A stretch of 64,000 nucleotides of DNA. Origin: an uncultured Desulfuromonadales bacterium. Lineage in GTDB: Bacteria; Desulfobacterota; Desulfuromonadia; Geobacterales; Pseudopelobacteraceae. Both the position numbers and the translations under genes were made by a program. Below are positions 455 through 31,877 of the stretch, in pieces (position 1 is the first letter of the stretch; each line of letters begins with the position of its first letter). The notes beneath the pieces were generated by a model. The model ran no database searches. It worked only from the letters and a program-made list of their open reading frames with translations, and was not told where the DNA came from. Where the stretch lies: contig CAIPTY010000071.1 of assembly GCA_903868145.1 (NCBI GenBank), positions 62,001 to 126,000 on the forward strand, read 5' to 3'.

Positions 455-2716
455 CTATCCGACCGAAACCAGCACCAGCCGGAAACCGAATCCATTGTAG
501 CGGCAGCCGGGGACGCCTCCGTCGCGGTTGGATGACGTGGCGTAGCTTGCGGCGTTGCACCAGCCGCCGCCACGAAAGACGCGATAGAGACCCGTTGAGG
601 GGCCGGTTGGATCTATAAAGGCATCGGCCGTGTAGTCGCCATGCCAATCCTGGCACCACTCGAAAACATTGCCGTGCATATCGTGCAGCCCCCACGCATT
701 GGGTTTCTTCTTTCCCACAGGCTGGGTCTGGCTGCCGGAGTTTGCGCTGTACCAGGCATAGTCACCCAGTTGGGACTCGTCATCGCCAAAGCAGTAGATT
801 CCCGTTGAACCGGCCCGGCAGGCATACTCCCATTCCGCCTCGGTCGGCAGACGATAGCTGCCCTTATTCATGGTGTTCAGGCGCTTGATAAACTCCTGGC
901 AATCTTCCCACGACACCATCTCCACCGGACGATCCGGATTCTTGAAATGGCTGGGGTTGGTGCCCATCACCGTCTCCCACTGGATCTGGGTTACGGGGTA
1001 CTTGCCCAGATGGAAATCCTTGCTTATTGATACCTGGTGGATCGGGCCGCTGGTTTCATCACCCATCATGAAGATTCCGGCCGGAACCGGACAAAAATCG
1101 AATCGCGCCGGAATAACAGTTTTCCGGCTCTTCGTGACAGTCCGCGTTTTGGTCAGTATCTCGGTTACCGCCTTTTTGAAGAGTCCTCCAGGCTTGATGA
1201 CAACCTTTTCCTGATAGCTTTCCTGCTCATGATATATCTCATCGCGTGTTTTGGAGGATTCCATTGTTATCATGATTGGCAGGCGCTGTGCTCCGGCAAT
1301 CATGTCATCCAGCCGTTGAACGACCGCCAGCATATCCAGCAACGGCCAGCTTTCACCATTTTCCAGAAAGTCCTTAAGCTGCCGGATCGCCTTTAATACG
1401 GTTTCCTCAGGGCTTCGCTCAAGAATCCGTTTTAATTGATCCAGACCCTCACGTATCTTCGGCACCGCCTGGCGATGCTTTTCTTTGCGCATGGCATCCA
1501 GAAAGCTGCGCAGCTTCTCGTCATGCCGCTGAAAATCATCATCACCGGCGGCCTTGATCGTATAGAAACGGTCGACATCAATTGCCTTGCTCAGGAGCGG
1601 CAACGCGGAATCAAGCTCGCCCAGCGCAATACGCACCTTGGCGGCCTGAAACAGTGCCTCGCCCAGATCGGGATTGATAGCCAGAGCCTGCTCCGTATGC
1701 ACAAGTCCTTCCTTCATTTTACCCTGGCAATAGGCCGCCCACCCGGCGGAGAGAAATGCCTGGGCGGCGTGATCGGGATAATCGGTTCTGGCGTACCGGG
1801 CGGCCAGGGCAAAGGATTCCTCAGCATCAGCAAGATCAATCAGCGACATATCGCCATTGACAAAACCGAGCCGGAGAGTCCCCTTCATCTGGTGAAAACG
1901 CCACCCCAGTTTATAACCGGCAGAGGTATGGTCACCGCTGATCGCCTTGTCCAGCGATTCCACGCACTCAAGGTACAGACCCTGGCGGAAGGCGTCGCGA
2001 GCTATCTCGTACTGTTCGTATGCTGCATTCTGGGCCGGGGTCTTGGCGATCCGGAGCAGCTCTTCCAAGGTATCGTTCATCCGCCCGATCGAGGCGATAG
2101 CCTGACCGAAACCCCAATGAAACGTGGCATTCAACTTTGAGACCCCGGAAGAGATCTCCTGCATGTCGTATGAAAGGCGGGTGACGCCTTCATTCACAGT
2201 GCCGCTCATTATTTCGGTGGCACGGATGTTCTCGGCCGCCAGTGCCTCATTGGAAGCAATCACCTCACGGGTCTGGCTGGAGATATCCAGAGACAGCCGC
2301 CGGCTTGCGCTGGTAGTGGCCGATGCAAGCCCATCCACAAACTCCCGTGAGGTCAGGTAGTCAACGTAACTCGGTTTGTTGCCGAACATGACCGGCGCCA
2401 GCCAACGCTTGAACGGTTCTGCCTTGGGGGATGGAATTGCCTGGACGATCCGCAGAAGCTGCTCGGTATCGGCAACGTCCGTAAGGTACAGCTTGCCGTC
2501 CGCCGCCTGCATCTTAAGCTGCCCGATATTTCCGGCCAGATCGCTCCCCTCATGCATCAGCTTTGTTTTCAGGTCGTTCCAGTATTTTCTCGGGCGAGGG
2601 CTTTCAACGAGCACTTCAATCACGTCAACAATGGAGAAAAACCATTTCTGTTTTTCACTGTCCCACTGTGTACGTATCTTTTGCTGGTCGAATATTTTGG
2701 TTTTCTCTGTCGCCAT
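455..2716 (-). CDS. BRO-N / TPR / formylglycine-generating-enzyme-like fusion protein; possible DGR target
   Basis: A protein of about 753 residues in three parts. Residues ~8-115 match the BRO-N/phage antirepressor family (SPRPRKYWNDLKTKL, IGQLKMQAADGKLYLTDV, PSPKAEPFKRWLA). Residues ~120-370 are helical with TPR-like repeats (WAAYCQGKMKEGL, EALFQAAKVRIALGELDSAL). Residues ~538-752 are an FGE-sulfatase (SUMF1, C-type-lectin fold) domain: PAGIFMMGDE, YRLPTEAEWEYACRAGS, LHDMHGNVFEWCQDW, then RVFRGGGWCNAAS and a final GFGFRLV. I start it at the ATG at 2716, which has GGAGG at the right distance; an upstream in-frame ATG at 2752 has none. The true biochemical role is unknown. FGE domains with this ending are the usual variable proteins of diversity-generating retroelements, and this is an inference here because no reverse transcriptase or template repeat is in the window. 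Confidence 0.85.
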   Translation of the reverse strand: MATEKTKIFDQQKIRTQWDSEKQKWFFSIVDVIEVLVESPRPRKYWNDLKTKLMHEGSDLAGNIGQLKMQAADGKLYLTDVADTEQLLRIVQAIPSPKAEPFKRWLAPVMFGNKPSYVDYLTSREFVDGLASATTSASRRLSLDISSQTREVIASNEALAAENIRATEIMSGTVNEGVTRLSYDMQEISSGVSKLNATFHWGFGQAIASIGRMNDTLEELLRIAKTPAQNAAYEQYEIARDAFRQGLYLECVESLDKAISGDHTSAGYKLGWRFHQMKGTLRLGFVNGDMSLIDLADAEESFALAARYARTDYPDHAAQAFLSAGWAAYCQGKMKEGLVHTEQALAINPDLGEALFQAAKVRIALGELDSALPLLSKAIDVDRFYTIKAAGDDDFQRHDEKLRSFLDAMRKEKHRQAVPKIREGLDQLKRILERSPEETVLKAIRQLKDFLENGESWPLLDMLAVVQRLDDMIAGAQRLPIMITMESSKTRDEIYHEQESYQEKVVIKPGGLFKKAVTEILTKTRTVTKSRKTVIPARFDFCPVPAGIFMMGDETSGPIHQVSISKDFHLGKYPVTQIQWETVMGTNPSHFKNPDRPVEMVSWEDCQEFIKRLNTMNKGSYRLPTEAEWEYACRAGSTGIYCFGDDESQLGDYAWYSANSGSQTQPVGKKKPNAWGLHDMHGNVFEWCQDWHGDYTADAFIDPTGPSTGLYRVFRGGGWCNAASYATSSNRDGGVPGCRYNGFGFRLVLVSVG

Positions 2717-2833
2717 CGTTATTGCCTCCATCGGCCTTGCCACGCACCTCAACCACCGCCTGCCGCTCCTGTGTGTATCTATTGATCCTTTCTCAGGTTC
2801 TATATATTCACGAAACCAGCCGTAAAATCAAAT

Positions 2834-15886: not shown

Positions 15887-17062
15887 TCAGACTCTTTCGA
15901 AAATTACAGCAACCGCTTCTCCGCCGCCAATACAGATTGCGGTAAGACCGTAACGGAGCTGACGTCTGTGCAGTTCGCGGATCACCGTTGCCGCAATGCG
16001 TGTCCCGCTGGCACCCAGCGGATGGCCGAGAGCACACGCGCCACCGTTGACATTAACCTTGTCCATTGGGATATTCAGGGTTTTGATCGTAAGGAGTGCC
16101 ACTGAGGCAAATGCCTCGTTGATTTCAAACAGATCAATGTCGTCCAGTGTGAGATTTGCTTTGTTGCAGGCTCTCTGAGCTGCCACCGCCGTTGCTTCCG
16201 AGAAGTAGTCGGGGTGGAGACTGGCTGTGGCATATGCAATAATTTGAGCCTTGGGTTTGAGGCCGTATTTTTTCAGCCCTGCTTTGCCGCTTAACAGCGC
16301 CGCAGCCGCTCCGTCGTTAATGGTTGACGCATTTCCGGCGGTAATCGTTCCATCCTTCCGGAAGACTGCGCGCAACTCACCCAGCTTGATGATTTCACCC
16401 CTGAATGGTTCTTCGTCCTTGTACAGGGTCTCGTCGCCTTTTTTCCCTTTTTTGATTATCGGAATGATCTCATCGACAAAGATACCTCCCTTGACTGCAG
16501 CCTGGGCTCGCTCATATGAACGTGCCGCAAACTCGTCCTGTTCGGCGCGAGTCATGCCGGCACGAGCTACGCTGTCCTCGCCGATCTCACCCATATGGCG
16601 CCCGGAAAAGGGATCCTGCAGGCCATCATAAATCATCAGGTCGAGCAGTGCCCCATGTCCCATTCGATAGCCGATACGACCCTTTTTGAGAATGTAGGGT
16701 GCCAGGCTCATATTCTCCTGGCCGCCGGCGATAACCAGATCCGATTCACCAAGCCGGATACTGTCACTGGCCAGCATCATCGACTTCAGTCCGCTACCGC
16801 AGACTTTATCAATGGTCATTGCGTGGGTCGCATCGGATATGCCAGCGGCACGCATGGCCTGGCGCGCCGGTGCCTGACCGCAGCCGCCCGTAAGAACGTG
16901 ACCCATAATGACTTCGGTCACCGCAGTGGACGGAATACCCGTCTTCTCAATAAGGGCCTTCATGACGGCCCCCCCCAGCTTTGGTGCTTCGATGTCGGCA
17001 AGCATGCCGCCCAGTGAACCGAATGGGGTTCGTAACGCCTCCACTACATACACTTTGTTCAT
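15887..17062 (-). CDS. phaA: Acetyl-CoA acetyltransferase (beta-ketothiolase) of the PHA locus
   Basis: 391 residues, the normal thiolase length. Catalytic features are DKVCGSGLKSMML (acyl-accepting Cys near residue 88), NEAFASVALL, NGGACALGHPLGASGTR (His) and CIGGGEAVAVIF (second Cys). It condenses two acetyl-CoA to acetoacetyl-CoA, the first step of polyhydroxybutyrate synthesis, or runs in reverse in degradation. It stands divergently from the phasin gene, in the same locus as phaE, phaC and phaB, which supports the PHA role. The symbol follows the context. Confidence 0.88.
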   Translation of the reverse strand: MNKVYVVEALRTPFGSLGGMLADIEAPKLGGAVMKALIEKTGIPSTAVTEVIMGHVLTGGCGQAPARQAMRAAGISDATHAMTIDKVCGSGLKSMMLASDSIRLGESDLVIAGGQENMSLAPYILKKGRIGYRMGHGALLDLMIYDGLQDPFSGRHMGEIGEDSVARAGMTRAEQDEFAARSYERAQAAVKGGIFVDEIIPIIKKGKKGDETLYKDEEPFRGEIIKLGELRAVFRKDGTITAGNASTINDGAAAALLSGKAGLKKYGLKPKAQIIAYATASLHPDYFSEATAVAAQRACNKANLTLDDIDLFEINEAFASVALLTIKTLNIPMDKVNVNGGACALGHPLGASGTRIAATVIRELHRRQLRYGLTAICIGGGEAVAVIFERV

Positions 17063-17214: not shown

Positions 17215-17272
17215 CACGAACCAGGCAATTGTGCCGGTCACCCAACATCAAAATCAACAAAAGGAGAAAAAA

Positions 17273-17803
17273 ATGAAAAATCAGAATGTTGCTCAGGAAA
17301 TTTTGGACTTCAACAAAAACGCGGTTAAAGAAGGTTTCGAGGCCCTCAGCACAAGCTCAAATCAGGCTGCCAAGACTGCCAGCCAGATCCTTGGCGCAAC
17401 CCCCAATGTTCCTGAAGAAGCCAAGAAAGCTGTTGATCTCTTCTTCAAGGAAAACCAGAAGGGTCTGTCCAGCCAGAGAAAGTTTGTTGAAAGCGGACTG
17501 GAAATCGACTGGACGAGCCCCAACGCCCCGGTTAAGGGCCTTGAAGCAATCGAAAACCTCTACAACAGCGCTTTCACACAGGTCGGTGCCTTGCAGAAAG
17601 AAACCAAAGAACTGCTCAAAAAAGCTACTGAGCAGCTCCCCAAGGAAGCCAAGCCCGTGGTTGAATTCTGGAATGAGACCCTCAACAGCAATTACAATAT
17701 CTTCCAGAGCTTTGTGACCAAGAACTTTGAACTGGCAAAAAAGGTAATTGGCGACCTGGCAGCCGACGCACCGAAATCCGAAGGCAAGTCCTCCTCTAAG
17801 TAA
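17273..17803 (+). CDS. Phasin family granule protein 1
   Basis: 176 residues, helical and amphipathic, typical of phasins: EILDFNKNAVKEGFEALS, NQAAKTASQILG, FNxxQ-like VEFWNETLNSNYNIFQSF and a lysine/serine tail. Phasins coat polyhydroxyalkanoate granules, controlling size and number. AAAGGAG precedes the ATG at 17273; an earlier in-frame GTG at 17231 lacks one. A paralogue of nearly the same length lies at 19402 and shares EIDW/DIDWS and QLPKE positions, so the two arose by duplication. Confidence 0.9.
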   Translation: MKNQNVAQEILDFNKNAVKEGFEALSTSSNQAAKTASQILGATPNVPEEAKKAVDLFFKENQKGLSSQRKFVESGLEIDWTSPNAPVKGLEAIENLYNSAFTQVGALQKETKELLKKATEQLPKEAKPVVEFWNETLNSNYNIFQSFVTKNFELAKKVIGDLAADAPKSEGKSSSK

Positions 17804-18033: not shown

Positions 18034-18516
18034 ATGAAAACAGTCAGGGATATGCTCCACAACAAAGATGCAAGCATATTATCTATTCCACCAGACGCCA
18101 CGGTTTTCGCGGCGATTAAACTCATGTCTGAGCGAAATATTGGCGCGCTGCCGGTTATGGATGGCGATAAACTCGTAGGCATCCTCTCGGAGCGGGATTA
18201 TGCCCGCAAGGTCATTCTGGAGGACAGATCATCCAAGGACACGCTGGTAAAGCATATCATGACACAAACAGTAATAACCATCGGAACGGATAACACTACG
18301 GAGGAGTGCATGACGCTCATGACGGAGCGGCACTTGCGGCACCTGCCGGTAATAGAGAACGATCGGATTATCGGAATGGTTTCAATCGGAGATGTGGTCA
18401 AGGCGATTATTTCAGAGCAGCATCGCACAATAAATGATCTTCATTCAATAATAAACAACGGTCCGTCCGATAGGAATTTTCGGAATTTGCTTTTTCGGGA
18501 ACTTGATAAATGCTGA
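18034..18516 (+). CDS. CBS-domain protein
   Basis: 160 residues made of two CBS repeats (VRDMLHNKDASILSIPPDAT, GILSERDYARKV; VKHIMTQTVITIGTDNTTEE, GMVSIGDVVKAI). Such stand-alone CBS pairs bind adenine nucleotides and act as energy sensors, partner unknown. AGGAGG precedes the ATG. It lies inside the PHA locus, convergent with the HTH regulator, with a shared hairpin between them. Confidence 0.9.
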   Translation: MKTVRDMLHNKDASILSIPPDATVFAAIKLMSERNIGALPVMDGDKLVGILSERDYARKVILEDRSSKDTLVKHIMTQTVITIGTDNTTEECMTLMTERHLRHLPVIENDRIIGMVSIGDVVKAIISEQHRTINDLHSIINNGPSDRNFRNLLFRELDKC

Positions 18517-18527
18517 TTGTCTCTCAT

Positions 18528-18558
18528 GGGGGGCGTGAAACCGCACGGCGCCCCCTTT
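18528..18558 (+). terminator. Hairpin between convergent CBS and HTH genes
   Basis: GGGGGCG (18529-18535) pairs with CGCCCCC (18549-18555), followed by TTT. The T-run is short, but the position between two converging stops supports a terminator. Confidence 0.5.
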
Positions 18559-19198
18559 AGTTGCACGATCCCTTCAAGCGCTCCATCAAGTGCCCCTCAA
18601 TTTCCCGGTAGGCCTCAACCGGGTCTATTTTCAGCGTAACGAGCATTTCAGCAAGCTTATCCTCATCCCCTTCACTCAGGCTGTCCACCAAATCAAGTTT
18701 CTCAAAAAGGCTGCGACCTTCTTCCTTTTTCTGTACCCGATACAGCCTCATGATCCGTATGACATCCTGATACATATCAGCCTGCGAGTCGGGTGGATCC
18801 TCCGGGCCGTCCTCATCTGCGAGCGCCTGTTTCATTAAATTTGCCTCGGTGGCCTCCATGAAATCGACCATGGCGTTGCTCCAGGGTGCCGCAGGTGCGC
18901 TCAGAAAACCGCTGGCCGCGATGAAATTCTTTAATGACTTGGAGCCGACGAGACCGAAGTCTTTGTTCGTAATGCCAAGAATTTCAAGCAGCCTCTCGAT
19001 CTTCGCTTTAGGAACACCGGCACGCCCAGACTCAAAACGTGCCACCACCTGAATTGCACTGTTCCCTTCATACCCGAGCGCAACCCCGATTTCCTTGCGG
19101 TTAAGCCCTTTTTCCAATCGACGTTTCTCAAGCAGCTTTCCCACCGCTTTTCGAAAGAGGTCCTTCTGCTCTTTGGTGATCATGGTAGAGTCCGTCAC
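18557..19198 (-). CDS. Xre-type helix-turn-helix protein of the PHA locus, candidate regulator
   Basis: 213 residues. Residues ~10-70 form a Cro/Xre HTH (LLEKRRLEKGLNRKEIGVAL, VARFESGRAGVPKAKIERLLEILGI). The rest is acidic and helical with no family I recognise; it may bind a ligand or the granule. The start is a GTG at 19198; an ATG at 19183 is possible. Its placement between two phasin genes whose promoters share TGTTTA repeats makes it the obvious candidate for binding those repeats. It is not the classical PhaR/PhbF family, so this is an inference from context. Confidence 0.75.
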   Translation of the reverse strand: MTDSTMITKEQKDLFRKAVGKLLEKRRLEKGLNRKEIGVALGYEGNSAIQVVARFESGRAGVPKAKIERLLEILGITNKDFGLVGSKSLKNFIAASGFLSAPAAPWSNAMVDFMEATEANLMKQALADEDGPEDPPDSQADMYQDVIRIMRLYRVQKKEEGRSLFEKLDLVDSLSEGDEDKLAEMLVTLKIDPVEAYREIEGHLMERLKGSCN

Positions 19199-19401: not shown

Positions 19402-19929
19402 ATGGAAAATCTGAATTTCAACAAAGAAACCGTGGCCTTTAGCAAAAGCGCAATCACACTGAGCTTCGATGCGCTCAGCACAATCTCCGGCCAGGCAGCC
19501 GTTACGACGGATCTGCTTCTCGGAGCAGTTCCATCCGTCCCTGAAGAAGGGAAGAAAGTTGCAAGCCTGTACTTTGCAGAGAGCCAGAAGAGCCTGACAA
19601 ACCTGAAAAAACATGCTGAAAACAGTCTGGATATTGATTGGAGCGCCAAGGACGCGCCGGTGAAAAGTCTGGATGTACTGGCAAACTTCTACAAGGATGC
19701 TTTCAGTCAGGCTGCCGAGTTCAGAAATGAGACAAAGGGTCTGGTAGAAAAGGGTGTTAAACAGCTTCCCAAGGAAACAAGATCAATCGTTGATTTCTGG
19801 AACGATTCTTTCAATTCCGGCTTTGTATCATTCCAGGGCGCTGTGAACAAGAATATTGAAATGGCGAGAAAAATCGCGGCTGACATTTTTGTTGTTGCGC
19901 CTGTTGTTCAGGCAAAAGCAGCCAAGTAA
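19402..19929 (+). CDS. Phasin family granule protein 2
   Basis: 175 residues, the paralogue of the phasin at 17273: FNKETVAFSKSAITLSFDAL, VPEEGKKVASLYFAESQK, DIDWSAKDAPVKSLDVL, KQLPKETRSIVDFWNDSFN. It should bind the surface of PHA granules. AAGGAG lies before the ATG. The last residues (QAKAAK) are short, without the long lysine tail seen in PhaE. Confidence 0.9.
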   Translation: MENLNFNKETVAFSKSAITLSFDALSTISGQAAVTTDLLLGAVPSVPEEGKKVASLYFAESQKSLTNLKKHAENSLDIDWSAKDAPVKSLDVLANFYKDAFSQAAEFRNETKGLVEKGVKQLPKETRSIVDFWNDSFNSGFVSFQGAVNKNIEMARKIAADIFVVAPVVQAKAAK

Positions 19930-20385: not shown

Positions 20386-20440
20386 TTACGGGGACTACGA
20401 CACATCAAGAGTGATCACAGAGACAATGAGAGGGGACAGT

Positions 20441-21829
20441 ATGCAGGATTTCATCAAAAAGCAGACAGATTGGCTGAAGACCTGGCAAGAGAATCAGGAG
20501 TCATTGACGAAACAGTACGCCGGGATGAGTGAAGAGTGGACCAGGAACATACTTGGCGGCAAGAGAAAAGATCCGGACTTCTTTGAGGGATGGTTCAAGT
20601 CTCAGGGAGATCTGGAGGATCAGTTCAGGGAGTTTGGCAAGCGCATGAACGAAATGATCGGCAATCTATGGAGCAACAGGATTCCCGGAGACGTCCTCAA
20701 GTTCGTGAATGTCTCCTTCTTCGAGGAGTTTTACAAAAACTGGCTGTCCAACATCGAGTTACCCGGTGGTATCAAAAATCCTCTGGGCATGAATGGCGGC
20801 ATGCAGCAGGCTACACAATTCCTTCGTTCTTTTATTGAGAAGGAGAATCCCTTCTTCTCCTCCTTCAGCAGCTCCAGGATGTCTGACCAGATGAGTCAGA
20901 TGTTTGGGCTGTTTCAGGGAGCTTTGGGGCAGGGGGGCGGCCCTTTCAGTGGAATGCTGAGCGGCTATCAGGATATGTTCGGCAAATTGTTTGAGTCCAG
21001 CACCGCTCAAAGTGCGGAAAAGCTGGCCGAGGGCTTTGAAACCTGGTCGAAGGAGATCATGAAGCACCTGTCAGCTCCCAAGCTGGGGATCAACAGAGAA
21101 CAGACCCAAGAGATTTCACAGGCGCTCGTGTTGTCACAGAGCTACATGCAGTCGTTCGTCAAGATGGCCCAGCTTGTCGAGAAAACCACTCGCAAGGCAG
21201 GTAGCCGCTTTCAGGCGAAATTGAGCGAAGAGGCCATTAAAAACAGGCCGGTGACCAAATTCACCGACTTTTGTGCGTTGTGGGCTGCTGAAAATGAGGC
21301 CGTATTTCTCGAAGTAATGGCTACCCCGGAGTTTGCACAAACCCAGGGCGATTTTATTGACGCCGGTCATCGTCTGAAGATCCAGTGGAACAAACTGGCA
21401 GAAAAGGCTTTGGAGCCGAGTCCCATTGCCCTCAAGCGGGATCTTGACCTGGCCATCGCAGAGATTCATCAATTGAAGCGCGACATGAAAACATTTAAGC
21501 GCGAGCTGCGAGTCATAGAAAAAGATGCTCTGTCGGCGCACGATGCCCAGACTGTAGCGGCAGAAACAGCGAAAAAGGCACAGATCGCCGTAAAAGCCGC
21601 CGAGGCTGCTGCACAGGAACAGGTTAAAAAAGCGAAGGCCGCCGAAGCTGCCGCACAAAAAGTTGCGCAGAAGGCACAAGCCGCTGAAGCCGCAGCGCTG
21701 GAAAAGGCAAAAAAAGCGAAAGCCGTTGCGGATGAATTGGTAAAAAAGGCAAAAAGTGATACTAAAACCGTCAAATCAGTTAAAACCACACCCAAGGTTG
21801 CCACCACAACCAAGTCCAAGAAAGCTTAG
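20441..21829 (+). CDS. phaE: Class III PHA synthase subunit PhaE with histone-like tail
   Basis: 462 residues; typical PhaE is about 320-370. The N-terminal ~330 residues fit the PhaE family (DFIKKQTDWLKTWQENQESL, KSYMQSFVKMAQ-like SQSYMQSFVKMAQLVE, KFTDFCALWAAENEAVFLEV). Residues ~350-462 are a long coiled coil turning into an Ala/Lys tail (AAAQEQVKKAKAAEAAAQ and so on, ending TTKSKKA). PhaE activates PhaC for polymerisation of 3-hydroxyacyl-CoA at the granule surface. The ATG at 20441 has AGGGGAC before it; a GTG at 20411 is less likely. The tail resembles that of the nucleoid-binding phasin PhaF. phaC follows 11 bases later. Confidence 0.9.
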   Translation: MQDFIKKQTDWLKTWQENQESLTKQYAGMSEEWTRNILGGKRKDPDFFEGWFKSQGDLEDQFREFGKRMNEMIGNLWSNRIPGDVLKFVNVSFFEEFYKNWLSNIELPGGIKNPLGMNGGMQQATQFLRSFIEKENPFFSSFSSSRMSDQMSQMFGLFQGALGQGGGPFSGMLSGYQDMFGKLFESSTAQSAEKLAEGFETWSKEIMKHLSAPKLGINREQTQEISQALVLSQSYMQSFVKMAQLVEKTTRKAGSRFQAKLSEEAIKNRPVTKFTDFCALWAAENEAVFLEVMATPEFAQTQGDFIDAGHRLKIQWNKLAEKALEPSPIALKRDLDLAIAEIHQLKRDMKTFKRELRVIEKDALSAHDAQTVAAETAKKAQIAVKAAEAAAQEQVKKAKAAEAAAQKVAQKAQAAEAAALEKAKKAKAVADELVKKAKSDTKTVKSVKTTPKVATTTKSKKA

Positions 21830-21840
21830 GAGAGGTCACG

Positions 21841-22905
21841 ATGCTTAATTTGCCGAATAACTTCAAGGAATCTCTGGAAGATTTCAACAAATTCGCCCAA
21901 AGCCTGAAAAAAGGGGCGGAGAATCTGGCGTCAATCAACGAGATCAAGGTTGGCCAGACCGAAAAAGATCTGGTGTTTCAGGATGGCAAGCGCAAACTCT
22001 ACCGGTACAAGCAGCGTGAGAGAAAGGTGTGCCCCGTGCCTACGCTGGTCGTGTACGCCCTGGTTAATCGCTTCACCATGCTCGATCTGCAGCCCAACCG
22101 TTCCCTGATTCGCAACCTGCTGGATAATGGCCAGGATGTGTATATTATCGACTGGGGCTACGCCGACCGTATGGATCGGTTCATGACCATGGAGGACTAT
22201 ATTGATGGCTTTATCAACGATTGTGTTGATTTCATCCGTGAGGAGCACAAGCTTGAGGCGATCAATCTGCTGGGAGTATGCCAAGGCGGCACATTCTCCG
22301 CTATTTATGCCTCACTCTACCCGCAAAAAGTGAAGAACTTCATTCCGATAGTTACTCCGGTCGATTTTGACACAAAAGACAGTCTGCTGAATGTCTGGGC
22401 TTCATCGTTCGATGCGGATCTGATGGTTGACGCCTACGGAAACATTCCCGGTGACATGATGAACAACGCATACATGATGTTGCAGCCGTTCACCCTGAGT
22501 GTGCAAAAGTACATCAACATGGTTAACATCATGGAGGATTTAGAGAAGCTGGGCGATTTCCTGCGCATGGAGACCTGGATTTTCGATAGCCCCGACCAGG
22601 CCGGTGAGACCCTGCGCCAGTTCCTGAAAGAAATTTATCAGGGCAACAAGCTGGTAAAGGGTGAATTTACTCTGGGCGGGCGAAAAGTTGACCTGAAAAA
22701 CATCACCATGCCGGTACTCAACGTATATGCCGAATTCGATACTCTGGTTCCACCTGTTTCTTCCAAGGCTCTGGCCAAACACATCGGCAGTAAAGATATT
22801 CAGGAATTGACCTACCCTGTCGGACACATCGGCATGTTCGTTTCCGGCAAAACACAGAAAACCCTGGCTCCAAAAATTGCAGAATGGATCAACAAGAGAG
22901 TTTGA
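21841..22905 (+). CDS. phaC: Class III PHA synthase catalytic subunit PhaC
   Basis: 354 residues, the class III length. The alpha/beta-hydrolase triad is complete: Cys147 in the lipase-like box GVCQGG, Asp300 in AEFDTLVPP and His329 in PVGHIGMFV. Other family marks are YIIDWGYADRMDRFMTMEDY and IVTPVDFDT. It polymerises (R)-3-hydroxyacyl-CoA into polyester together with PhaE. GGAGAGG lies just before the ATG; the gene is coupled to phaE and followed by phaB 54 bases later. Confidence 0.96.
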   Translation: MLNLPNNFKESLEDFNKFAQSLKKGAENLASINEIKVGQTEKDLVFQDGKRKLYRYKQRERKVCPVPTLVVYALVNRFTMLDLQPNRSLIRNLLDNGQDVYIIDWGYADRMDRFMTMEDYIDGFINDCVDFIREEHKLEAINLLGVCQGGTFSAIYASLYPQKVKNFIPIVTPVDFDTKDSLLNVWASSFDADLMVDAYGNIPGDMMNNAYMMLQPFTLSVQKYINMVNIMEDLEKLGDFLRMETWIFDSPDQAGETLRQFLKEIYQGNKLVKGEFTLGGRKVDLKNITMPVLNVYAEFDTLVPPVSSKALAKHIGSKDIQELTYPVGHIGMFVSGKTQKTLAPKIAEWINKRV

Positions 22906-22959: not shown

Positions 22960-23718
22960 ATGATCATCAAGGATAAGGTTTTTGTAGTTACCGGTGCGGC
23001 GCGTGGTTTGGGTTTTGCTTTTGCTCAGAACCTTGCTGAAGTGGGGGCCAGGCTGGCACTGGTTGATATGAATGCCGAAGGATTGGAACAGTCTGCTCAG
23101 GTTCTCCGGGGGCAGGGCACGGATGTGCGGACATACACCGCAAACGTTACATCGGATGAGGCGGTAACCACCCTTTTTGACAACGTGCTGAAGGATTTTG
23201 GCAGGATTGACGGCCTGATCAACAACGCCGGCATCACACGCGATTCCCTGCTGGTAAAGAGCAAGGACGGTGACATTCAAACGATGAAGACGAGCGATTG
23301 GCAGCAGGTTATCGACGTTAACCTCACCGGTGTGTTTCTATGTGGACGGGAAGCGGCTGCCCGTATGGTTCAGACAAAATCCGCAGGTGTGATCGTCAAC
23401 GTCAGCAGTGTCTGCAGCGCTGGAAATATGGGGCAGAGTAACTACTCCGCAGCCAAGGCCGGCGTTGTAGCCCTGACAACCACATGGAGCAAGGAACTGG
23501 TACGCTACGGCATCCGTGTAGGCGCAGTGGCTCCAGGGTATGTCAACACGGAAATGGTTCAGCAGATTCGTGCCGAGGTGTTGGAGAAGATCAAGGCCCA
23601 GGTTCCGATGAAACGTTTGGCAGAGCCCGCTGAGATTGCTCACACCGCCCGTTTTATAATAGAGAACGATTACTTCACCGGTCGGACCATCGGAGTAGAT
23701 GGCGGTTTACGCATCTAA
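22960..23718 (+). CDS. phaB: Acetoacetyl-CoA / 3-oxoacyl reductase (SDR)
   Basis: 252 residues of the short-chain dehydrogenase family: cofactor motif TGAARGLGFAFA, NNAGITRD, catalytic Ser-Tyr-Lys in NVSSV, SNYSAAKAG, and a C-terminal TGRTIGVDGGLRI. In this operon it most likely reduces acetoacetyl-CoA to (R)-3-hydroxybutyryl-CoA for PhaEC. The FabG-like sequence could also serve fatty acid synthesis, so the symbol rests on context. GAAGGGAG precedes the ATG; a strong terminator ends the operon. Confidence 0.85.
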   Translation: MIIKDKVFVVTGAARGLGFAFAQNLAEVGARLALVDMNAEGLEQSAQVLRGQGTDVRTYTANVTSDEAVTTLFDNVLKDFGRIDGLINNAGITRDSLLVKSKDGDIQTMKTSDWQQVIDVNLTGVFLCGREAAARMVQTKSAGVIVNVSSVCSAGNMGQSNYSAAKAGVVALTTTWSKELVRYGIRVGAVAPGYVNTEMVQQIRAEVLEKIKAQVPMKRLAEPAEIAHTARFIIENDYFTGRTIGVDGGLRI

Positions 23719-23752
23719 CTTCCTTGGTAATAAAGAATATATGTTTCACAAG

Positions 23753-23787
23753 GCCCCCATTCTCCACGCGAGATGGGGGCTTTTTTT
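23753..23787 (+). terminator. Terminator of the PHA operon
   Basis: GCCCCCAT (23753-23760) pairs perfectly with ATGGGGGC (23773-23780), followed by seven T. Confidence 0.88.
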
Positions 23788-23901
23788 ATATCTATTTGTT
23801 GAGCAATTTTATCAAAATAATCTGGTGCCATAAGCCTGAACCGATATGTGGGCCAAAAAAAATAATATAATGCTGTTTTTTTTCTTGATATTAAAATTCC
23901 A

Positions 23902-23930
23902 TTGGCATATTGAATTACTACACAGATAAT
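23902..23930 (+). promoter_or_regulatory. Candidate promoter of the fused carboxylase gene
   Basis: TTGGCA (23902-23907), a 17-base spacer and GATAAT (23925-23930) in an AT-rich stretch without genes (23790-24069). The start codon is 140 bases further on. Confidence 0.45.
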
Positions 23931-24069
23931 CAGAAATAAAAAAAACAATCACAGATAAAAACGCTAAAAAGACCCTTCGTTGGTACGTTTGTTCTATGCC
24001 ATAAAAAAAAACATCAGAGACCCAGTACCTCCTGGTTCACAAAATCCCGTTTTGAGAAAGGCCATACCC

Positions 24070-27000
24070 ATGCCAACTCCTCCATCAATCGATCGTTTCT
24101 TTGAGCTCGCTGAACAACTTGCATCCGACTTTTCTCTCCTCAAAGGGGTCAGTCGCTCTAATCGTGCCCGAGAAAAACAGGAGGTGGAACTTGCTCTTGC
24201 CGGGCTTGTCGATCACCGTACTGTCGAGCAGAACACCAAGCGCCTTAAAGAGCTTGACGTTGACGCCTATATCAGGGAAACCGTGGAGCCATCGGAGCAG
24301 AAGAACCGTATTGGTTTCAAGGCGATCCTGAAACAATTGAAACTTAAGATAGTGGACGAGATCGCTTTTGGTCCTTTGCACTGTGTAGAGGCCGAATTCG
24401 ATTTTGATGGCTACCAGCGGCGACTCTGCCTGCTGGCTCAGGACCGCAACACCAACAACGGTGTCTGGGGACCGGAGCATCACCGCAAGGCGATCGAAAT
24501 TGTTCGCAAATACGAACGCTATTCGGTTCCAGTCATCACCTTTATCGATACGCCGGGCGCAGACGCCGGTGAGGTTGCCAACGCCAACAACCAGGCGCAT
24601 TCTATTTCCCATTTTATTGCCGAGATGGCGAATCTGAACGTTCCCTCCGTCGGCATCATTCTCGGCAACGGCTATTCCGGCGGTGCCATCCCACTGGCCA
24701 CCACCAATATCCTTCTCTCGGTTCGTGACGGCGTGCTGAATACCATCCAGCCCAAGGGATTGGCTGCCATAGCCCGAAGCCTGGATCTCAGTTGGCAGGA
24801 GTGTGCCAAATACGTAGGTGTAAGCGCATATGAACTCTACCAGCAGGATTTTGTTGACGGCATAATTGACTACGTGCCGGGCGAAAAGGGGCCACAACTT
24901 GAGAATCTGCGCAACGCCATCGTTTCGGCAGTCAGCGCTATCGAGAACCGTGCAATCACCTTTGTAAAAGAAACCGACGGTGTTTTGGACCACTATCGCG
25001 AAAACCTGCTTCGCTACGTCAATCCGTCAGAAAAACTAAAGGCCCTGAACAGTCTTTCGGCGCTTTCCCTGACCCACTTCCCGACTGAATACTTCAGCGT
25101 TTTCGGCATCACCTACCGCTATATGCGCTATCTGAGCATGAGAGGGCGTATCAAATCCACCTCGGCGGCAAATTACAGCCGCTCCACCAATCTGGCGACG
25201 CCCAAGGGGGATTTGTCCAGGCGTGTTCAGGAAGAGCAGGACAACGCTTTTGCAAGCTGGCTTGAAAAACCGCTGCATATTCGGTACGACGACCTCCTGA
25301 GCAAAAGCTACAAGACCTATCTCGACCGCAAGGAGCATTCGGGCGACGAGCGTGGCCGCTTGTCCAAATTGATCCTTGGAGATGCAAGCGAGAACTTTGA
25401 AAAAGCGCAGCATACCACGTACCTTGCGTACGGCTTTCACCTGTACAATCTCTGGAAATCGTGGAGTCAGAATAATTTCATCGCATTGATCAAGTACCTC
25501 GGCGCTTCGTCTGCAAATACCGCTTCAAACCCTTCAGAAATGACGGTTCTCGATGTCATTACACTGGCTGATTTCCGCGAAGGGATGATTCGGGAGTGCC
25601 AGAACTGCATCATTTTCGATCTGGTCTATGACCAGATCATTTCAGACCTGCGCCCGATTGCTGCTGAAGCCAAGGATACCAATACCTTCTCGAAAAAGTC
25701 TTTCCGGGCGTTACTGGAATCATCAATCCACGCCGCATCAACCAAGCTCAAGGTCATGTTTGGCGAGGGGGCCGTGGATTCCAACCGCCTCGAAGACAAC
25801 TTCTACAGTTGGCTCAACACTCTCCTGCAGCATCCGCAGATGAAAGATTTCATCCGACCGGTTCAGGAGTGGAAAAAGATCCAGTATCCCCGCATCTCGG
25901 AACCTCTCTTTGCCATCGTCACGTTCCTGTTTGAGAAACTGCTGCTGGAGTACGTCGAGTCTGAACGTGAAGGGCGCGCCTATGACGGTCGCATCAATCT
26001 GCGCGACATCGGCATGAAAGATTTCTGGAACCGTCTGACAACCGCATATAATGACCTGTTGATTCAGGATGTACTGCTACAGGACAAGCGAGCCAAGAAC
26101 TGCCGTTTTGAGACAATTGTCGCGGAGTTCTTCACCGATTTCCGCGAACTCGACAGCGACCTGATGACCTCAGACCCGGCCAACTTCCCCGGTTTCCGTC
26201 TCTCCATCGAGAAGGCACTCGATAAAGGCATCAAGCCGTGCGGTGTCCTGACCGGCCTTGCCAAACTCAAAAAAGAGGGGGATCACCCAGCCACCAGGGT
26301 CGGGGTACTGATCTCTAACCTCGATTTCCAGGCAGGGGCCTTTGACATGCCGTCGGCCGAGAAGTTCTGCAACCTCCTTCTTCAGTGCGCACGTCGTAAA
26401 CTTCCGGTGGTCGCCTTTGTCTCATCGGGCGGCATGAACACCAAAGAGGGAGCCGGATCGCTCTTTTCAATGTCGATTGTCAATGACCGTATCACCCGCT
26501 TTATCCGGGACAACGAACTCCCCATCATCTGTTTCGGCTTTGGTGACTGTACCGGTGGGGCACAGGCATCATTTGTTACGCACCCGCTGGCACAGACCTA
26601 TTATTTCTCAGGTTGCGGCATGCCCTTTGCCGGACAGATTGTGGTACCATCCTATCTTCCCTCGACGGTGACCCTGTCCAACTATTTGAGTTGCACCCCC
26701 GGTGCCATGCAGGGACTGGTAAAACACCCCTTCAACCACGACCTTGATAAACAACTGCGTGCCATCGATCCGGCGATACCGACACCGGTTGAAAGCGTTA
26801 TGGATGTCTGTCACCGCGTATTCAAAGGCCTCTATCGCCCGGATGTTGATATCACTGCATCCGAAAGCAGTTCACTGGTGGATGAACGTTCGTTGCTGAA
26901 ACCGGTCAAGCGTACCCTGATTCACGCTCGAGGCTGTACGGCCGCCAAGCTGGTCATGGTTGCCCAGCGTGAGGGTATTGAAGTCGTGCTGGTGCAATCC

Positions 27001-28638
27001 GACGCCGATATGGATTCGGCGGTCGCCGGGCAGCTCACCGATAAGGACACCCTGGTCTGCATCGGCGGCAATACCCCTGACGAGTCATATCTCAACGCCA
27101 AATCGGTTCTGCGGATTGCTGAACAGCAGAAGGTCGATTCACTCCATCCGGGCATCGGCTTCCTGTCGGAAAATGCCGACTTCGCCCTGATGTGCCGCAA
27201 TCGCGGGATCAACTTTGTCGGCCCCTGGTTCTCCAGCATGGAGTTGATGGGCAACAAAACCAACGCCATTGACACCGCCACCAAGGCCGGAGTTCCGGTC
27301 GTTCCGGGAAGTCACGGCATCATCGGCAGCGTGGAAACCGGGATGGAAGTCGCCGAGACAATCGGCTACCCCGTGCTGCTCAAAGCTGTTCATGGCGGGG
27401 GCGGTAAGGGCATAAAGGTTGTTGAGAAAGCGGAGGATTTCCGTGAAACCTTCTTCACGATCTCCTCGGAGGCTCGGGCTGCATTCGGTTCAGGTGATAT
27501 CTACCTGGAAAAATATGTGACCAACCTGCGCCATATTGAAGTTCAGATTCTCCGCGATGCCCTTGGTAACTGCCGTATTCTAGGCCTGCGCGACTGTTCG
27601 GTGCAGCGCAACAACCAGAAGATTTTTGAAGAGTCCGGCTCGACCATGCTGCCTGAAAATCTCGAAAAAGATGTCTACAAATATGCGGAATTGATTGCAA
27701 ACCAAGTGGATTATGTCGGCGCAGGAACCGTCGAATTCATCTTTAATCTCGATAGCGTCGCCATCTATTTCATGGAAATGAATACACGCCTTCAGGTTGA
27801 ACACCCCGTTACCGAGCAGGTGACTGGTGTTGATATCGTTGCAAACCAGTTCAGGATTGCCGGTGGCGGTTCTATAGAAGATATAGTCTTCAAGCCCAAG
27901 GGGTACGCCATTGAGGCCCGTATAACCGCCGAACGCACCGCTGTAGAAGGCGGAAGCATCTCTTTCATCCCAACCCCCGGTAATGTAACGGCATTCAGCA
28001 TTCCCGACGCAAAACATATTAAAGTTATCAAGATGGTTGAGGCCGGCAAACCGATTACCCCCTACTATGACTCACTGATTGCGCAGGTAATCGCTACCGG
28101 CAAAGACAGGGATGATGCCGCAGACAAGCTGCTTGCGGCCCTGGAAGGCACCGTAATAAATGGTGTTCATACCAATATTCCGCTGTTGAAACGGGTTTTA
28201 AGAGATGAAACCTTCCGCAAGGGGATCTACAACACCCAGTATCTGAACGGTTTCCTTGACCGTATTAATGTTGATGAGATGATTGAAGAAGGAGAAACAG
28301 CTTCCGGCTCAACCCAGGTTGTGCTTGATCGTTCTGCTGTTGAAATCGAGGGAAGTAATGAACTCAAAGTTCTCTCTCCTTCCACAGGAGTCTTCTACGA
28401 CGCTTCATCTCCTAGCGAACCTCCCTTTGCACCGATCGGTAAAGAGATCAAACTCAGGGATACAATCGGCCTGCTTGAGGCAATGAAGCTTTTCGCGCCG
28501 GTCTCTCTTAACACCTGCAATCCGGGTGGCGTTTTCTATGATACTGATAAGACGTATGAAATCGTTCGCGTCATCCCAACTCCCGGCCAGGCTGTTAACA
28601 AAGGCGACCTGCTGTTCGTCGTCAAGGAGGCCGTCTGA
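24070..28638 (+). CDS. Single-chain acyl-CoA carboxylase with AccA-, AccD-, AccC- and AccB-like modules
   Basis: 1522 residues. In order: an AccA-like carboxyltransferase part (~90-290; TFIDTPGADAGEVANANNQ, NGYSGGAIPLATTN), a ~400-residue helical stretch of no known family, an AccD-like part (~742-880; FVSSGGMNTKEGAGSLFSMS, FGFGDCTGGAQASFV), a biotin carboxylase (~947-1400; LHPGIGFLSENADFA, KAVHGGGGKGIKVV, EMNTRLQVEHPVTEQ), and a biotin carrier with Lys1473 in LLEAMKLFAP. It should carboxylate a short acyl-CoA (acetyl- or propionyl-CoA) using ATP and bicarbonate. I choose the ATG at 24070; a TTG at 23980 is in frame but unsupported. The gene leads an apparent operon with a ketoacyl synthase and a thiolase. 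Confidence 0.88.
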   Translation: MPTPPSIDRFFELAEQLASDFSLLKGVSRSNRAREKQEVELALAGLVDHRTVEQNTKRLKELDVDAYIRETVEPSEQKNRIGFKAILKQLKLKIVDEIAFGPLHCVEAEFDFDGYQRRLCLLAQDRNTNNGVWGPEHHRKAIEIVRKYERYSVPVITFIDTPGADAGEVANANNQAHSISHFIAEMANLNVPSVGIILGNGYSGGAIPLATTNILLSVRDGVLNTIQPKGLAAIARSLDLSWQECAKYVGVSAYELYQQDFVDGIIDYVPGEKGPQLENLRNAIVSAVSAIENRAITFVKETDGVLDHYRENLLRYVNPSEKLKALNSLSALSLTHFPTEYFSVFGITYRYMRYLSMRGRIKSTSAANYSRSTNLATPKGDLSRRVQEEQDNAFASWLEKPLHIRYDDLLSKSYKTYLDRKEHSGDERGRLSKLILGDASENFEKAQHTTYLAYGFHLYNLWKSWSQNNFIALIKYLGASSANTASNPSEMTVLDVITLADFREGMIRECQNCIIFDLVYDQIISDLRPIAAEAKDTNTFSKKSFRALLESSIHAASTKLKVMFGEGAVDSNRLEDNFYSWLNTLLQHPQMKDFIRPVQEWKKIQYPRISEPLFAIVTFLFEKLLLEYVESEREGRAYDGRINLRDIGMKDFWNRLTTAYNDLLIQDVLLQDKRAKNCRFETIVAEFFTDFRELDSDLMTSDPANFPGFRLSIEKALDKGIKPCGVLTGLAKLKKEGDHPATRVGVLISNLDFQAGAFDMPSAEKFCNLLLQCARRKLPVVAFVSSGGMNTKEGAGSLFSMSIVNDRITRFIRDNELPIICFGFGDCTGGAQASFVTHPLAQTYYFSGCGMPFAGQIVVPSYLPSTVTLSNYLSCTPGAMQGLVKHPFNHDLDKQLRAIDPAIPTPVESVMDVCHRVFKGLYRPDVDITASESSSLVDERSLLKPVKRTLIHARGCTAAKLVMVAQREGIEVVLVQSDADMDSAVAGQLTDKDTLVCIGGNTPDESYLNAKSVLRIAEQQKVDSLHPGIGFLSENADFALMCRNRGINFVGPWFSSMELMGNKTNAIDTATKAGVPVVPGSHGIIGSVETGMEVAETIGYPVLLKAVHGGGGKGIKVVEKAEDFRETFFTISSEARAAFGSGDIYLEKYVTNLRHIEVQILRDALGNCRILGLRDCSVQRNNQKIFEESGSTMLPENLEKDVYKYAELIANQVDYVGAGTVEFIFNLDSVAIYFMEMNTRLQVEHPVTEQVTGVDIVANQFRIAGGGSIEDIVFKPKGYAIEARITAERTAVEGGSISFIPTPGNVTAFSIPDAKHIKVIKMVEAGKPITPYYDSLIAQVIATGKDRDDAADKLLAALEGTVINGVHTNIPLLKRVLRDETFRKGIYNTQYLNGFLDRINVDEMIEEGETASGSTQVVLDRSAVEIEGSNELKVLSPSTGVFYDASSPSEPPFAPIGKEIKLRDTIGLLEAMKLFAPVSLNTCNPGGVFYDTDKTYEIVRVIPTPGQAVNKGDLLFVVKEAV

Positions 28639-28742: not shown

Positions 28743-30674
28743 ATGAAACCGTTCAGACTGAACAAACATGGAAAACTGGTGCTTCCCTGCAGCATCTTCA
28801 TTGATATCGACTTCACGATCATCAAAAGTCTTGATCACTTACAGGCGATCGTTCGTCGGGACTTTGAAGGAAAGGCTCCGACGGGCACCGAAATTGCCAA
28901 GCGGGCTACCGCCGGTTCCTATGCAACTCGCTATGACCTGCTGCGGGACATCAGCCTCAACCTTTTCTGGGCAAATCGCTTTGCCCTGACTATGTACGAC
29001 AAACGTCCGACGCGCTGGCGCGATGTGCCGCGCAACCGCGAAGATGTCTTCGTGGCACTCTTGCAGCCATGGACGGATGGCAAGGCAAAGGCCGCGACTG
29101 TTCGTGAAGCCTACGGCAAGCTTGATGCGATGTGGAGCCAAACTTCCGAGGACGAGCTTTTTGAAATGCTCTTCGACGTCTTCTCGAACAAGCTCTATCG
29201 CGCACAGGAGCTCCCCCCGATCAAGGCTACAATTGCAGAAGCGCTCGCTACTCCCGATGCCATGACGACCACAATCGGAAAATTTAATCCTGACTTCCTG
29301 CATTACAGCGATGTTGAAATTCTCGATGCCTCTGAAGAGCAACCAGAGCTTGAGGCGCTCCGGCGATGGGCCATGGTGCTCCACAATCAGCACCCGTGGG
29401 ATAGAAGCCGAGCCAAGCTGAAAACATTTGACGACATGGAGGATGACGACGTCGTCGTGCTGTTTTATCCCAAAAATCGTGACGTCCTTCATTTTATAAA
29501 TCGCGCGAAGAGTGGAACCATGCCCACACCGAAATCACCGAAGGCAGCTCCTTCATGTGCACCCGTAACACCGCTCCTGCCATTGGTGCTTGCCACGGAT
29601 ACTCCTATTCGACCGAAGATCGAGGCACTCGCGATCCGCAAGGGTGAGGTTATTTGCAACAATGATGATGTTGTACGGAACTCTCCTCCATCATGGTCCC
29701 CCATGAGCGCCGATGAAATCGCGGAGAAAACCGGTATTGAGCGCCGCCGCTATACGGCCGAACCATTGGAGAACATCGCCCTTGAGGCTGCCCAGGCTGC
29801 AATGAAGCATTCCGGTCGAACACCGGGGGAAATCGGTGCGGTACTTTTCTGTACCTGCACCTCCAGCAGGTTGATTCCCTCGACTTCTACCTGGCTTTCA
29901 GGGCAGTTGGGCATCATGCAGACCCACTGCTCGGCGGACATCATCGCCGCCTGCGCCGGTTTCCCCTACGGAATGGCCGAGGCGGTCCGCCTGATGCGGG
30001 AGGTAAACCGTCCGGTTCTGCTGGTATGCGCCGAGAAGTTCTCGGACAAGATCGGCAATGCGCGACCGTCGCGCATGATCTTTGGCGACGGAGCAGCTGC
30101 CTTGGTAATCGCGCCGAGCGACGGTGAGCGTGACATAGAAGTGGTTCAGACCTACGCCAGCGGCCCCTTCAGCCAGGTCAACTCCATCATCTGGCCGAAC
30201 CATGACTACGACAACGACATTACCGTGTATGGCCCCGAGGTCAAGGATCTTGTCAAACGGTATCTTGACCAGATGATGAGTGAGCTCACCGCGCTCAAGA
30301 GTGTTAAAGGAGGCAAAGCGCTGATCGACGACATCGACGTGATTGTCCCTCATCAGGCCAACAAGACCATGATCATCGACATTGCCGTGCCGCAGGGTAT
30401 TAAGGCCGAGGATATTTATTTCAACATAACCGAAGTCGGCAACGCTTCCGCAGCGAGCATTCCAATCGCTATGGCAGACGCGGTCTATGACAAGGCGATC
30501 ACGAAGCGTTCACTGATTTTCGCTCCTGGCTTTGGTGCTGGTGCTGTCGGTGGCTACGTGGTAATGTGGCTGGATCCGGCGGTGGTTGCACCGGAAGCTA
30601 CAATTGAACTCGTGATGAGCCCCTCGCGGAAGACGTCAAACTCATCAGTCGAAGATATAAAAGATACATTTTAA
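28743..30674 (+). CDS. Ketoacyl synthase III (FabH-like) fused to an unknown N-terminal domain
   Basis: 643 residues. From about residue 285 it is a beta-ketoacyl synthase III with the full triad: Cys404 in AACAGFPYG, His537 in VPHQANK and Asn567 in EVGNASAASIP. Other marks are GIERRRY and RMIFGDGAAALV. KAS III enzymes condense an acyl-CoA starter with malonyl-ACP or a similar extender. Residues 1-255 match no family I recognise; they contain SIFIDIDFTIIKSLDHL and many Trp/Arg and acidic residues. A Pro/Thr-rich linker joins the two. AAAGGAG precedes the ATG. The upstream carboxylase could supply its malonyl-type substrate, which is an inference. Confidence 0.82.
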   Translation: MKPFRLNKHGKLVLPCSIFIDIDFTIIKSLDHLQAIVRRDFEGKAPTGTEIAKRATAGSYATRYDLLRDISLNLFWANRFALTMYDKRPTRWRDVPRNREDVFVALLQPWTDGKAKAATVREAYGKLDAMWSQTSEDELFEMLFDVFSNKLYRAQELPPIKATIAEALATPDAMTTTIGKFNPDFLHYSDVEILDASEEQPELEALRRWAMVLHNQHPWDRSRAKLKTFDDMEDDDVVVLFYPKNRDVLHFINRAKSGTMPTPKSPKAAPSCAPVTPLLPLVLATDTPIRPKIEALAIRKGEVICNNDDVVRNSPPSWSPMSADEIAEKTGIERRRYTAEPLENIALEAAQAAMKHSGRTPGEIGAVLFCTCTSSRLIPSTSTWLSGQLGIMQTHCSADIIAACAGFPYGMAEAVRLMREVNRPVLLVCAEKFSDKIGNARPSRMIFGDGAAALVIAPSDGERDIEVVQTYASGPFSQVNSIIWPNHDYDNDITVYGPEVKDLVKRYLDQMMSELTALKSVKGGKALIDDIDVIVPHQANKTMIIDIAVPQGIKAEDIYFNITEVGNASAASIPIAMADAVYDKAITKRSLIFAPGFGAGAVGGYVVMWLDPAVVAPEATIELVMSPSRKTSNSSVEDIKDTF

Positions 30675-30704
30675 GTTTGATGTTTGCTTCCTGAGGGAGT
30701 CGTT

Positions 30705-31877
30705 ATGAGAGATGTATATCTAATTGGCGTCGGCCAGACCAAGATGACAAAAAATGCAGGAGTTCGCGGTCGCTACATGGCTGCGGAGGCCATGCAAAAG
30801 GCAGTTGAGCACGCAGGGATTGACTGGAAACAGATCGGCATGCTGGTTACCGGTAATATGACGGCGGGTCGGTTGTCGCATCAACAGCAGTTGGGGGCTT
30901 TGCATGCAGATGTGGTCGGCTTGCGCGGAGTCGAGGCCGCGACGGTAGAGGCGGCCTGTGGTTCAGGCGCTGCTGCGGCTCGTTGGGGTTTTATGGCCGT
31001 GGGTGGAGGCTTTCACGATGTCGCGCTGATCTGCGGAAGCGAGCGCATGACCCAGGCGCCACTCGATGATACAACGGCGGCCCTGGCAACAGCGGCCGAC
31101 TGGGAACTGGAAGGGATCAACGGCGAATCATTTGTTTCGCTGAATGCCCGTCTCATGAAGCAATACATGCAGACTTATGGAGTTACTTCACAGGACTTCG
31201 GACACTTTGCAATAACCGCCCATGACAACGGTTTCACCAATCCAAATGGGTTCTTGCACAAGAAGATAGACATGGAAACCTATCTCCACTCACGGATGCT
31301 CGTTGACCCGGTCAAGTTACTTGATGCACCGCCTATCTGTGATGGCGCCGCATCGATTGTGCTTGCTACTGAAGAGGTTGCCCGTGCTGCCCATCGGCAG
31401 GGATTGCCTTTGATCAGGATAGCTGGCTCAGCCATTGGAACTGACTCGCTTGCCCTGGATTCCCGCCGCGACATGCTGGTGCTAGACGGTGCGGTTCTTT
31501 CCACGCGCCGGGCCATGGAACAGGCCGGCATCAAAAATGATGATATCGATATCTTCGAACTGCATGACGCCTATACCGTCATTACCTCGCTGAGTCTTGA
31601 GGCAGCGGGTTTTGCTGAAAAGGGCAAGGGAGTCCATTTTGGCAAGGATGGTGAGATAAGCCGGACCGGCAGGCTTCCAATTTCAACCTTTGGCGGTCTG
31701 AAGTCACGCGGTCACCCCGTCGGAGCAACCGGGGTCTATCAGTTGGTCGAAACCTATCTGCAACTGACCGGAACAGCCGGTGAAAATCAGGTGCCGGATC
31801 CGGAGTTTGCTCTCGTGCAGAATATTGGCGGAACCGGTGCAACAGTCGTCAGCCATGTTCTGCAACGATGCGCGTAA
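30705..31877 (+). CDS. SCP2/SCPx-type thiolase family protein
   Basis: 390 residues from the ATG at 30705, which has TGAGGGAG in front (a TTG at 30684 is in frame). Motifs are VEAACGSGAAAARWGFMAV (acyl Cys), DIFELHDAYTVITSLSLEAAG, PISTFGGLKSRGHPVGATGVYQ (His) and QNIGGTGATVVSHVL. This is the branch that resembles archaeal acetyl-CoA acetyltransferases and SCPx rather than PhaA. In archaea such thiolases work with HMG-CoA synthase; here the neighbour is a ketoacyl synthase III of the same superfamily, so a similar paired condensation is possible. A DUF35 partner is not seen. Confidence 0.85.
   Translation: MRDVYLIGVGQTKMTKNAGVRGRYMAAEAMQKAVEHAGIDWKQIGMLVTGNMTAGRLSHQQQLGALHADVVGLRGVEAATVEAACGSGAAAARWGFMAVGGGFHDVALICGSERMTQAPLDDTTAALATAADWELEGINGESFVSLNARLMKQYMQTYGVTSQDFGHFAITAHDNGFTNPNGFLHKKIDMETYLHSRMLVDPVKLLDAPPICDGAASIVLATEEVARAAHRQGLPLIRIAGSAIGTDSLALDSRRDMLVLDGAVLSTRRAMEQAGIKNDDIDIFELHDAYTVITSLSLEAAGFAEKGKGVHFGKDGEISRTGRLPISTFGGLKSRGHPVGATGVYQLVETYLQLTGTAGENQVPDPEFALVQNIGGTGATVVSHVLQRCA

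Follow-up and report, generated by a model that had tools for sequence, protein, structure and literature searches.

AccS, reported in 2024, is a multi-domain acetyl-CoA carboxylase (ACC) of Shewanella oneidensis with a domain order unlike that of eukaryotic ACC (PMC11602165). It acts as a fatty-acid ACC, its reduction in Shewanella causes a growth defect that is rescued by E. coli accABCD, and AccS and its homologues were stated to be confined to Shewanella and a small number of gammaproteobacterial genera (PMC11602165). Two PDB entries, 9kkm (cryo-EM) and 9w4a, carry the title 'Acetyl-CoA carboxylase multifunctional enzyme AccADCB' (1,517 aa). Other described layouts are the heteromeric bacterial ACC (AccA, AccB, AccC, AccD) and the eukaryotic and actinobacterial multidomain ACC (BC-BCCP-central-CT, e.g. 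SACE_4237 of S. erythraea; PMC6491548). Here we describe a gene of the AccADCB type in a 64,000-nucleotide stretch of DNA (hereafter the window) from an uncultured Desulfuromonadales bacterium. The A-D-C-B architecture is already known from Shewanella. The novelty lies in the setting: the gene belongs to a Geobacter-type clade, is an extra ACC there and lies in a neighbourhood of polyhydroxyalkanoate (PHA) genes that a first-pass annotation of the same DNA had missed.

A predicted single-chain acetyl-CoA carboxylase

The gene and the domains of its product are as follows.

24070..28638, plus strand: accADCB, single-chain acetyl-CoA carboxylase, 1,522 aa (Pfam/NCBIfam domains; end-to-end match to PDB 9kkm)
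24448..24888, plus strand: AccA-type carboxyltransferase (CT) alpha domain, aa 127-273 (PF03255 (ACCA), E 1.4e-30)
24916..26169, plus strand: helical insert between the CT halves, aa 283-700 (AlphaFold2 model; 9kkm_A match)
26137..26860, plus strand: AccD-type carboxyltransferase beta domain, about aa 690-930 (TIGR00515; 2f9i_B)
26905..28248, plus strand: biotin carboxylase (BC) domain (N/ATP-grasp/C), aa 946-1393 (PF00289, PF02786, PF02785)
28324..28509, plus strand: biotin carboxyl carrier domain (BCCP), aa 1419-1480 (TIGR00531, E 3e-10)

The frame is an unbroken plus-strand ORF (23980-28638) in which the start conserved among homologues is the ATG at 24070, the position that the first-pass annotation had also given. 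Pfam and NCBIfam matches run from AccA (CT-alpha) through ~400 helical residues to AccD (CT-beta; the TIGR00515 match covers about aa 690-837, E 2e-9), biotin carboxylase and BCCP, in agreement with its description of all four ACC functions in one A-D-C-B chain, with the carboxyltransferase halves first and the carrier last. Its further claim that this order is unlike that of known single-chain carboxylases did not hold. A categorically new carboxylase architecture, as it implied, has next to no chance of being right and is already refuted: the order does differ from those of eukaryotic ACC and LCC, but Shewanella AccS (PMC11602165; PDB 9kkm, 9w4a) has both this order and this helical insert, and about 65 Shewanella-type loci align over the full length of accADCB.

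Sequence conservation supports the carboxylase assignment. In alignments with relatives, the DTPGAD..GE and YSGGAIP motifs of the AccA domain, SSGGM and CTGGAQAS of the AccD domain, GGGGKG, RHIEVQ and MEMNTRLQVEHPVTE of the biotin carboxylase domain and the biotinylation motif EAMKL of the BCCP domain are all intact, and the aligned motif windows place the CT Gly-Gly turns and the ATP-grasp loop as in the relatives. The loss of biotinylation or of carboxyltransferase residues, which had been named as a sign of a non-carboxylase role, is thus not seen at the sequence level. Among six intact Geobacter-type homologues, dN is 0.03-0.06 and dS 0.8-1.8 (high and mostly saturated), so synonymous change outpaces amino-acid change about 25- to 40-fold; a dN/dS of ~0.03 indicates that the chain is under purifying selection and that the gene is maintained.

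A PDB sequence search aligned query residues 7-1519 to 9kkm/9w4a with 1,645 bits. The likeness to S. oneidensis AccS/AccADCB comprises the A-helical-D-C-B order, the end-to-end alignment, a nearly equal length (1,517 aa vs 1,522 aa here) and the fold of the insert. Identity to the Shewanella enzyme is ~50% overall, 37% in the insert and 42% in BCCP, while comparison with a Shewanella homologue gave 57% for AccA, 64% for AccD and 59% for BC. The biotinylation motif is EAMKL here and EAMKM in Shewanella AccS. Directly upstream of accADCB, where the neighbouring gene encodes an SDR, there was no sign of a divergent LysR (AccR-type) gene. As a separate observation, an interrupted accS fragment of Shewanella type, together with a LysR gene, is present on the IncHI2A plasmid pOXA436 of a clinical Enterobacter asburiae (L053:10691-15144). 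The fragment adjoins blaOXA-436 and at its end is joined in frame to a gene annotated as cmlA, in keeping with the capture of a Shewanella chromosomal segment.

The ~400 residues between the CT halves, described in the first-pass annotation as unknown helical sequence, are indeed helical, yet they have a known counterpart. Pfam gave no match of note for the insert, and a weak Peptidase_C28 match (E 0.036, below cut-off) was discarded. The AlphaFold2 model is all-helical with a mean pLDDT of 61 and values of 70-87 over much of the core, and a fold search aligned it to 9kkm_A 385-683 with Z 26.3 and an rmsd of 2.8 Å over 278 residues. This was the sole convincing match; 14-3-3 and other helical folds (Z 4-4.5) were taken as background.

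The enzyme shares its four functions and its AccA/AccD-type CT halves with heteromeric bacterial ACC, but differs from it in being fused into one chain with a helical insert; the N-terminal zinc-ribbon cysteines of the genome's standalone AccD could not be discerned in the AccD part of accADCB. With eukaryotic and actinobacterial multidomain ACC it has in common that one chain holds all functions, but the domain order differs and the Pfam scan found no ACC_central match in the product. Given the full-length homology to a characterised enzyme, conversion of acetyl-CoA to malonyl-CoA can be assigned with high confidence, and judged from sequence the product is almost certainly an acetyl-CoA carboxylase of the AccADCB/AccS type. 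The BC domain would use ATP and bicarbonate to carboxylate the biotin that the C-terminal BCCP carries. Carboxylation of another short acyl-CoA, e.g. propionyl-CoA, in PHA monomer or anaplerotic metabolism is improbable. Other multidomain ACCs do accept propionyl-CoA (S. erythraea SACE_4237; PMC6491548) and genes for an acyl-CoA thiolase and an SDR are adjacent, but the CT halves are of AccA/AccD type, the nearest known relative acts as an acetyl-CoA carboxylase, and the genome encodes a separate Carboxyl_trans protein of 584 aa (C86) that could act on propionyl-CoA.

Distribution and standalone ACC genes

A scan of genome contigs for accADCB yielded 71 loci. Five come from Desulfuromonadales/Geobacteraceae MAGs and show about 90% identity; the remainder belong to Shewanella, Parashewanella and Paraglaciecola, nearly all with 46-50% identity. 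Within the order of the window's genome (Geobacter-type Desulfuromonadia) the gene was present in 7 of 141 genomes, and in a phylum-wide sample (n=395 genomes) it was found in the window's genome only. An unrooted tree of 26 sequences places the six of Geobacter type in a single group with full support, and a very long branch lies between this group and the gammaproteobacterial enzymes; the direction of any transfer is not readable from such a tree.

Separate accABCD genes, which the first-pass annotation had proposed to look for, are all present: the window's genome has a full standalone set of accA, accB, accC and accD, and accADCB is therefore an additional ACC there. Standalone AccA was also found in five further Geobacter-type genomes tested and in Paraglaciecola hydrolytica, whereas none was detected in three Shewanellaceae genomes, where the sole full AccA-type match was AccADCB itself. 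The gene described here differs from Shewanella AccS in being an extra ACC in a PHA neighbourhood.

Polyhydroxyalkanoate genes upstream

The genes upstream of accADCB that bear on its role, and the terminator that precedes it, are listed below.

15887..17062, minus strand: PhaA-type acetyl-CoA acetyltransferase (also near accADCB in four other loci, 74-75% conserved)
19402..19929, plus strand: phasin-like protein (45-63% identical to proteins in the other loci)
20411..21829, plus strand: PhaE, class III PHA synthase subunit (PF09712, E 1.8e-25)
21841..22905, plus strand: PhaC, class III PHA synthase catalytic subunit (TIGR01836, 491 bits, cut-off 365)
22960..23718, plus strand: SDR ketoreductase, PhaB/FabG-like (NF006072, 372 bits, cut-off 298)
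23752..23788, plus strand: intrinsic terminator in the SDR-accADCB intergenic region (hairpin of -21.5 kcal/mol with z -4.5, followed by U7)

Class III PhaC and PhaE are encoded together on the same strand as accADCB; PhaC carries the motifs GVCQGG, EFDTLVPP and VGHIG, while PhaE scores 83 bits against TIGR01834, under the cut-off of 155. The order phaE-phaC-SDR-accADCB recurs in six of the seven accADCB genomes of the order, in one of which SDR and accADCB are separated by one ORF on the opposite strand. The seventh genome (G022) has accADCB and the gene for a KASIII-like protein (see below) next to a class I-like phaC that lies on the other strand. The accADCB frame of G022 (L055:4782-9334) is broken near residue 1240; the gene may be misassembled or a pseudogene.

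Farther upstream, two related phasin-like genes (17231-17803 and 19402-19929) flank genes for a CBS-domain-like protein (18034-18516) and an HTH protein (18557-19198, minus strand); relatives of the 17231-19929 genes recur around accADCB in the other loci, and the homologue of the phasin-like protein in L065 has a weak Phasin_2 match (E 9e-4, below cut-off). Elsewhere in the window (455-2752, minus strand), a 765-aa protein shows an unusual combination of a Bro-N domain, TPR repeats and an FGE-sulfatase domain.

Equivalent hairpins between SDR and accADCB occur in the two other loci tested (L063 and L064), and in view of this conserved terminator phaE-phaC-SDR and accADCB are probably separate transcription units. 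A promoter-like site lies just upstream of accADCB (23902-23930), of a kind no commoner than in shuffled sequences. The terminator also fits a serious rival explanation, in which accADCB is a second general ACC, gained by horizontal transfer, that provides extra malonyl-CoA for fatty acids and whose location among PHA genes is incidental. The fatty-acid role of the Shewanella homologue (PMC11602165), the patchy distribution and the availability of PhaA nearby point the same way. On balance we regard it as the less likely reading, since the genome keeps its complete set of ordinary ACC genes and the PHA neighbourhood has been retained in six of seven genomes despite the high, mostly saturated dS.

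Condensing enzyme and thiolase downstream

Two genes follow accADCB on the same strand.

28743..30674, plus strand: N-extended KASIII-like condensing enzyme, 643 aa (KASIII profile, PDB sequence matches)
30684..31877, plus strand: archaeal-type/SCP2-like acetoacetyl-CoA thiolase (7yvy, 341 bits; 6esq, 214 bits)

The KASIII domain spans about residues 320-608, with Cys404-His537-Asn567 assigned by motif. For residues 1-290 there was no match among those listed in Pfam, plasmid tblastn and PDB sequence searches, and an AlphaFold2 model of the whole protein from three close sequences reached a pLDDT of 32. Homologues occur in 5 of the 141 genomes of the order, all of them among the seven with accADCB and adjacent to it each time. 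At L063 and L065, an archaeal-type thiolase gene stands directly or one gene after accADCB, and no KASIII homologue was found anywhere in either genome at E 1e-60. A strict accADCB-KASIII pair, our first hypothesis, is weakened by these two loci.

The window's genome encodes a second N-extended KASIII copy (86% identical), directly upstream of a 1,426-aa carboxylase ORF (L006:5019-9299; genome contig C37:25018-29298). This ORF has the order BT-BCCP-ACC_central-CT, i.e. that of eukaryotic and actinobacterial ACC, without a biotin carboxylase domain. ACC_central was found in 1 of the 141 genomes of the order and the 1,426-aa protein in 1 of the 395 of the phylum sample.

Proposed role

Our preferred reading is that accADCB encodes an AccADCB-type ACC that supplies malonyl-CoA for PHA; we give this reading as a whole, weighted to the enzyme identity, a probability of roughly 0.75. 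The PHA role by itself, which we draw from the gene neighbourhood, stands at about even odds. It is favoured by the standalone accA, accB, accC and accD in the same genome, by phaE-phaC-SDR beside accADCB in six of the seven genomes of the order that have the gene, by the restriction of the KASIII-like protein to such genomes and by the second KASIII copy, which adjoins another carboxylase chain. Against it are the two loci without KASIII, the conserved terminator and the nearby PhaA: with a PhaA-type thiolase gene ~7 kb away, an ordinary route to acetoacetyl-CoA also exists.

More tentatively, and with clearly less than an even chance, these Geobacter-type bacteria might use a malonyl-CoA-to-PHB route in which the dedicated single-chain ACC works with an adjacent putative acetoacetyl-CoA synthase. 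AccADCB would supply malonyl-CoA to the condensing enzyme encoded alongside it, the KASIII-like protein would act as acetoacetyl-CoA synthase, and its product would pass to the neighbouring ketoreductase and class III PhaEC for polyhydroxyalkanoate synthesis. The condensation, unfavourable on its own, would be pulled forward by decarboxylation of malonyl-CoA, with ATP spent to drive the step. The same logic from malonyl-CoA to acetoacetyl-CoA is used with NphT7 in engineered PHB producers. The candidate synthase resembles NphT7-like malonyl-CoA-dependent acetoacetyl-CoA synthases in its KASIII family domain with Cys-His-Asn, a likeness seen here at the sequence level. For a natural malonyl-CoA route to PHB, the titles and abstracts of the literature searched were chiefly those of engineering papers and reviews, and among these papers the route was seen solely in engineered strains.

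The range of AccADCB is herewith extended from gammaproteobacteria (PMC11602165) to a Geobacter-type clade that also has ordinary ACC. In this clade, a probable malonyl-CoA supplier is linked to PHA genes. A malonyl-CoA route, if one truly operates in these bacteria, would be the natural equivalent of the NphT7 strategy in engineered PHB producers.
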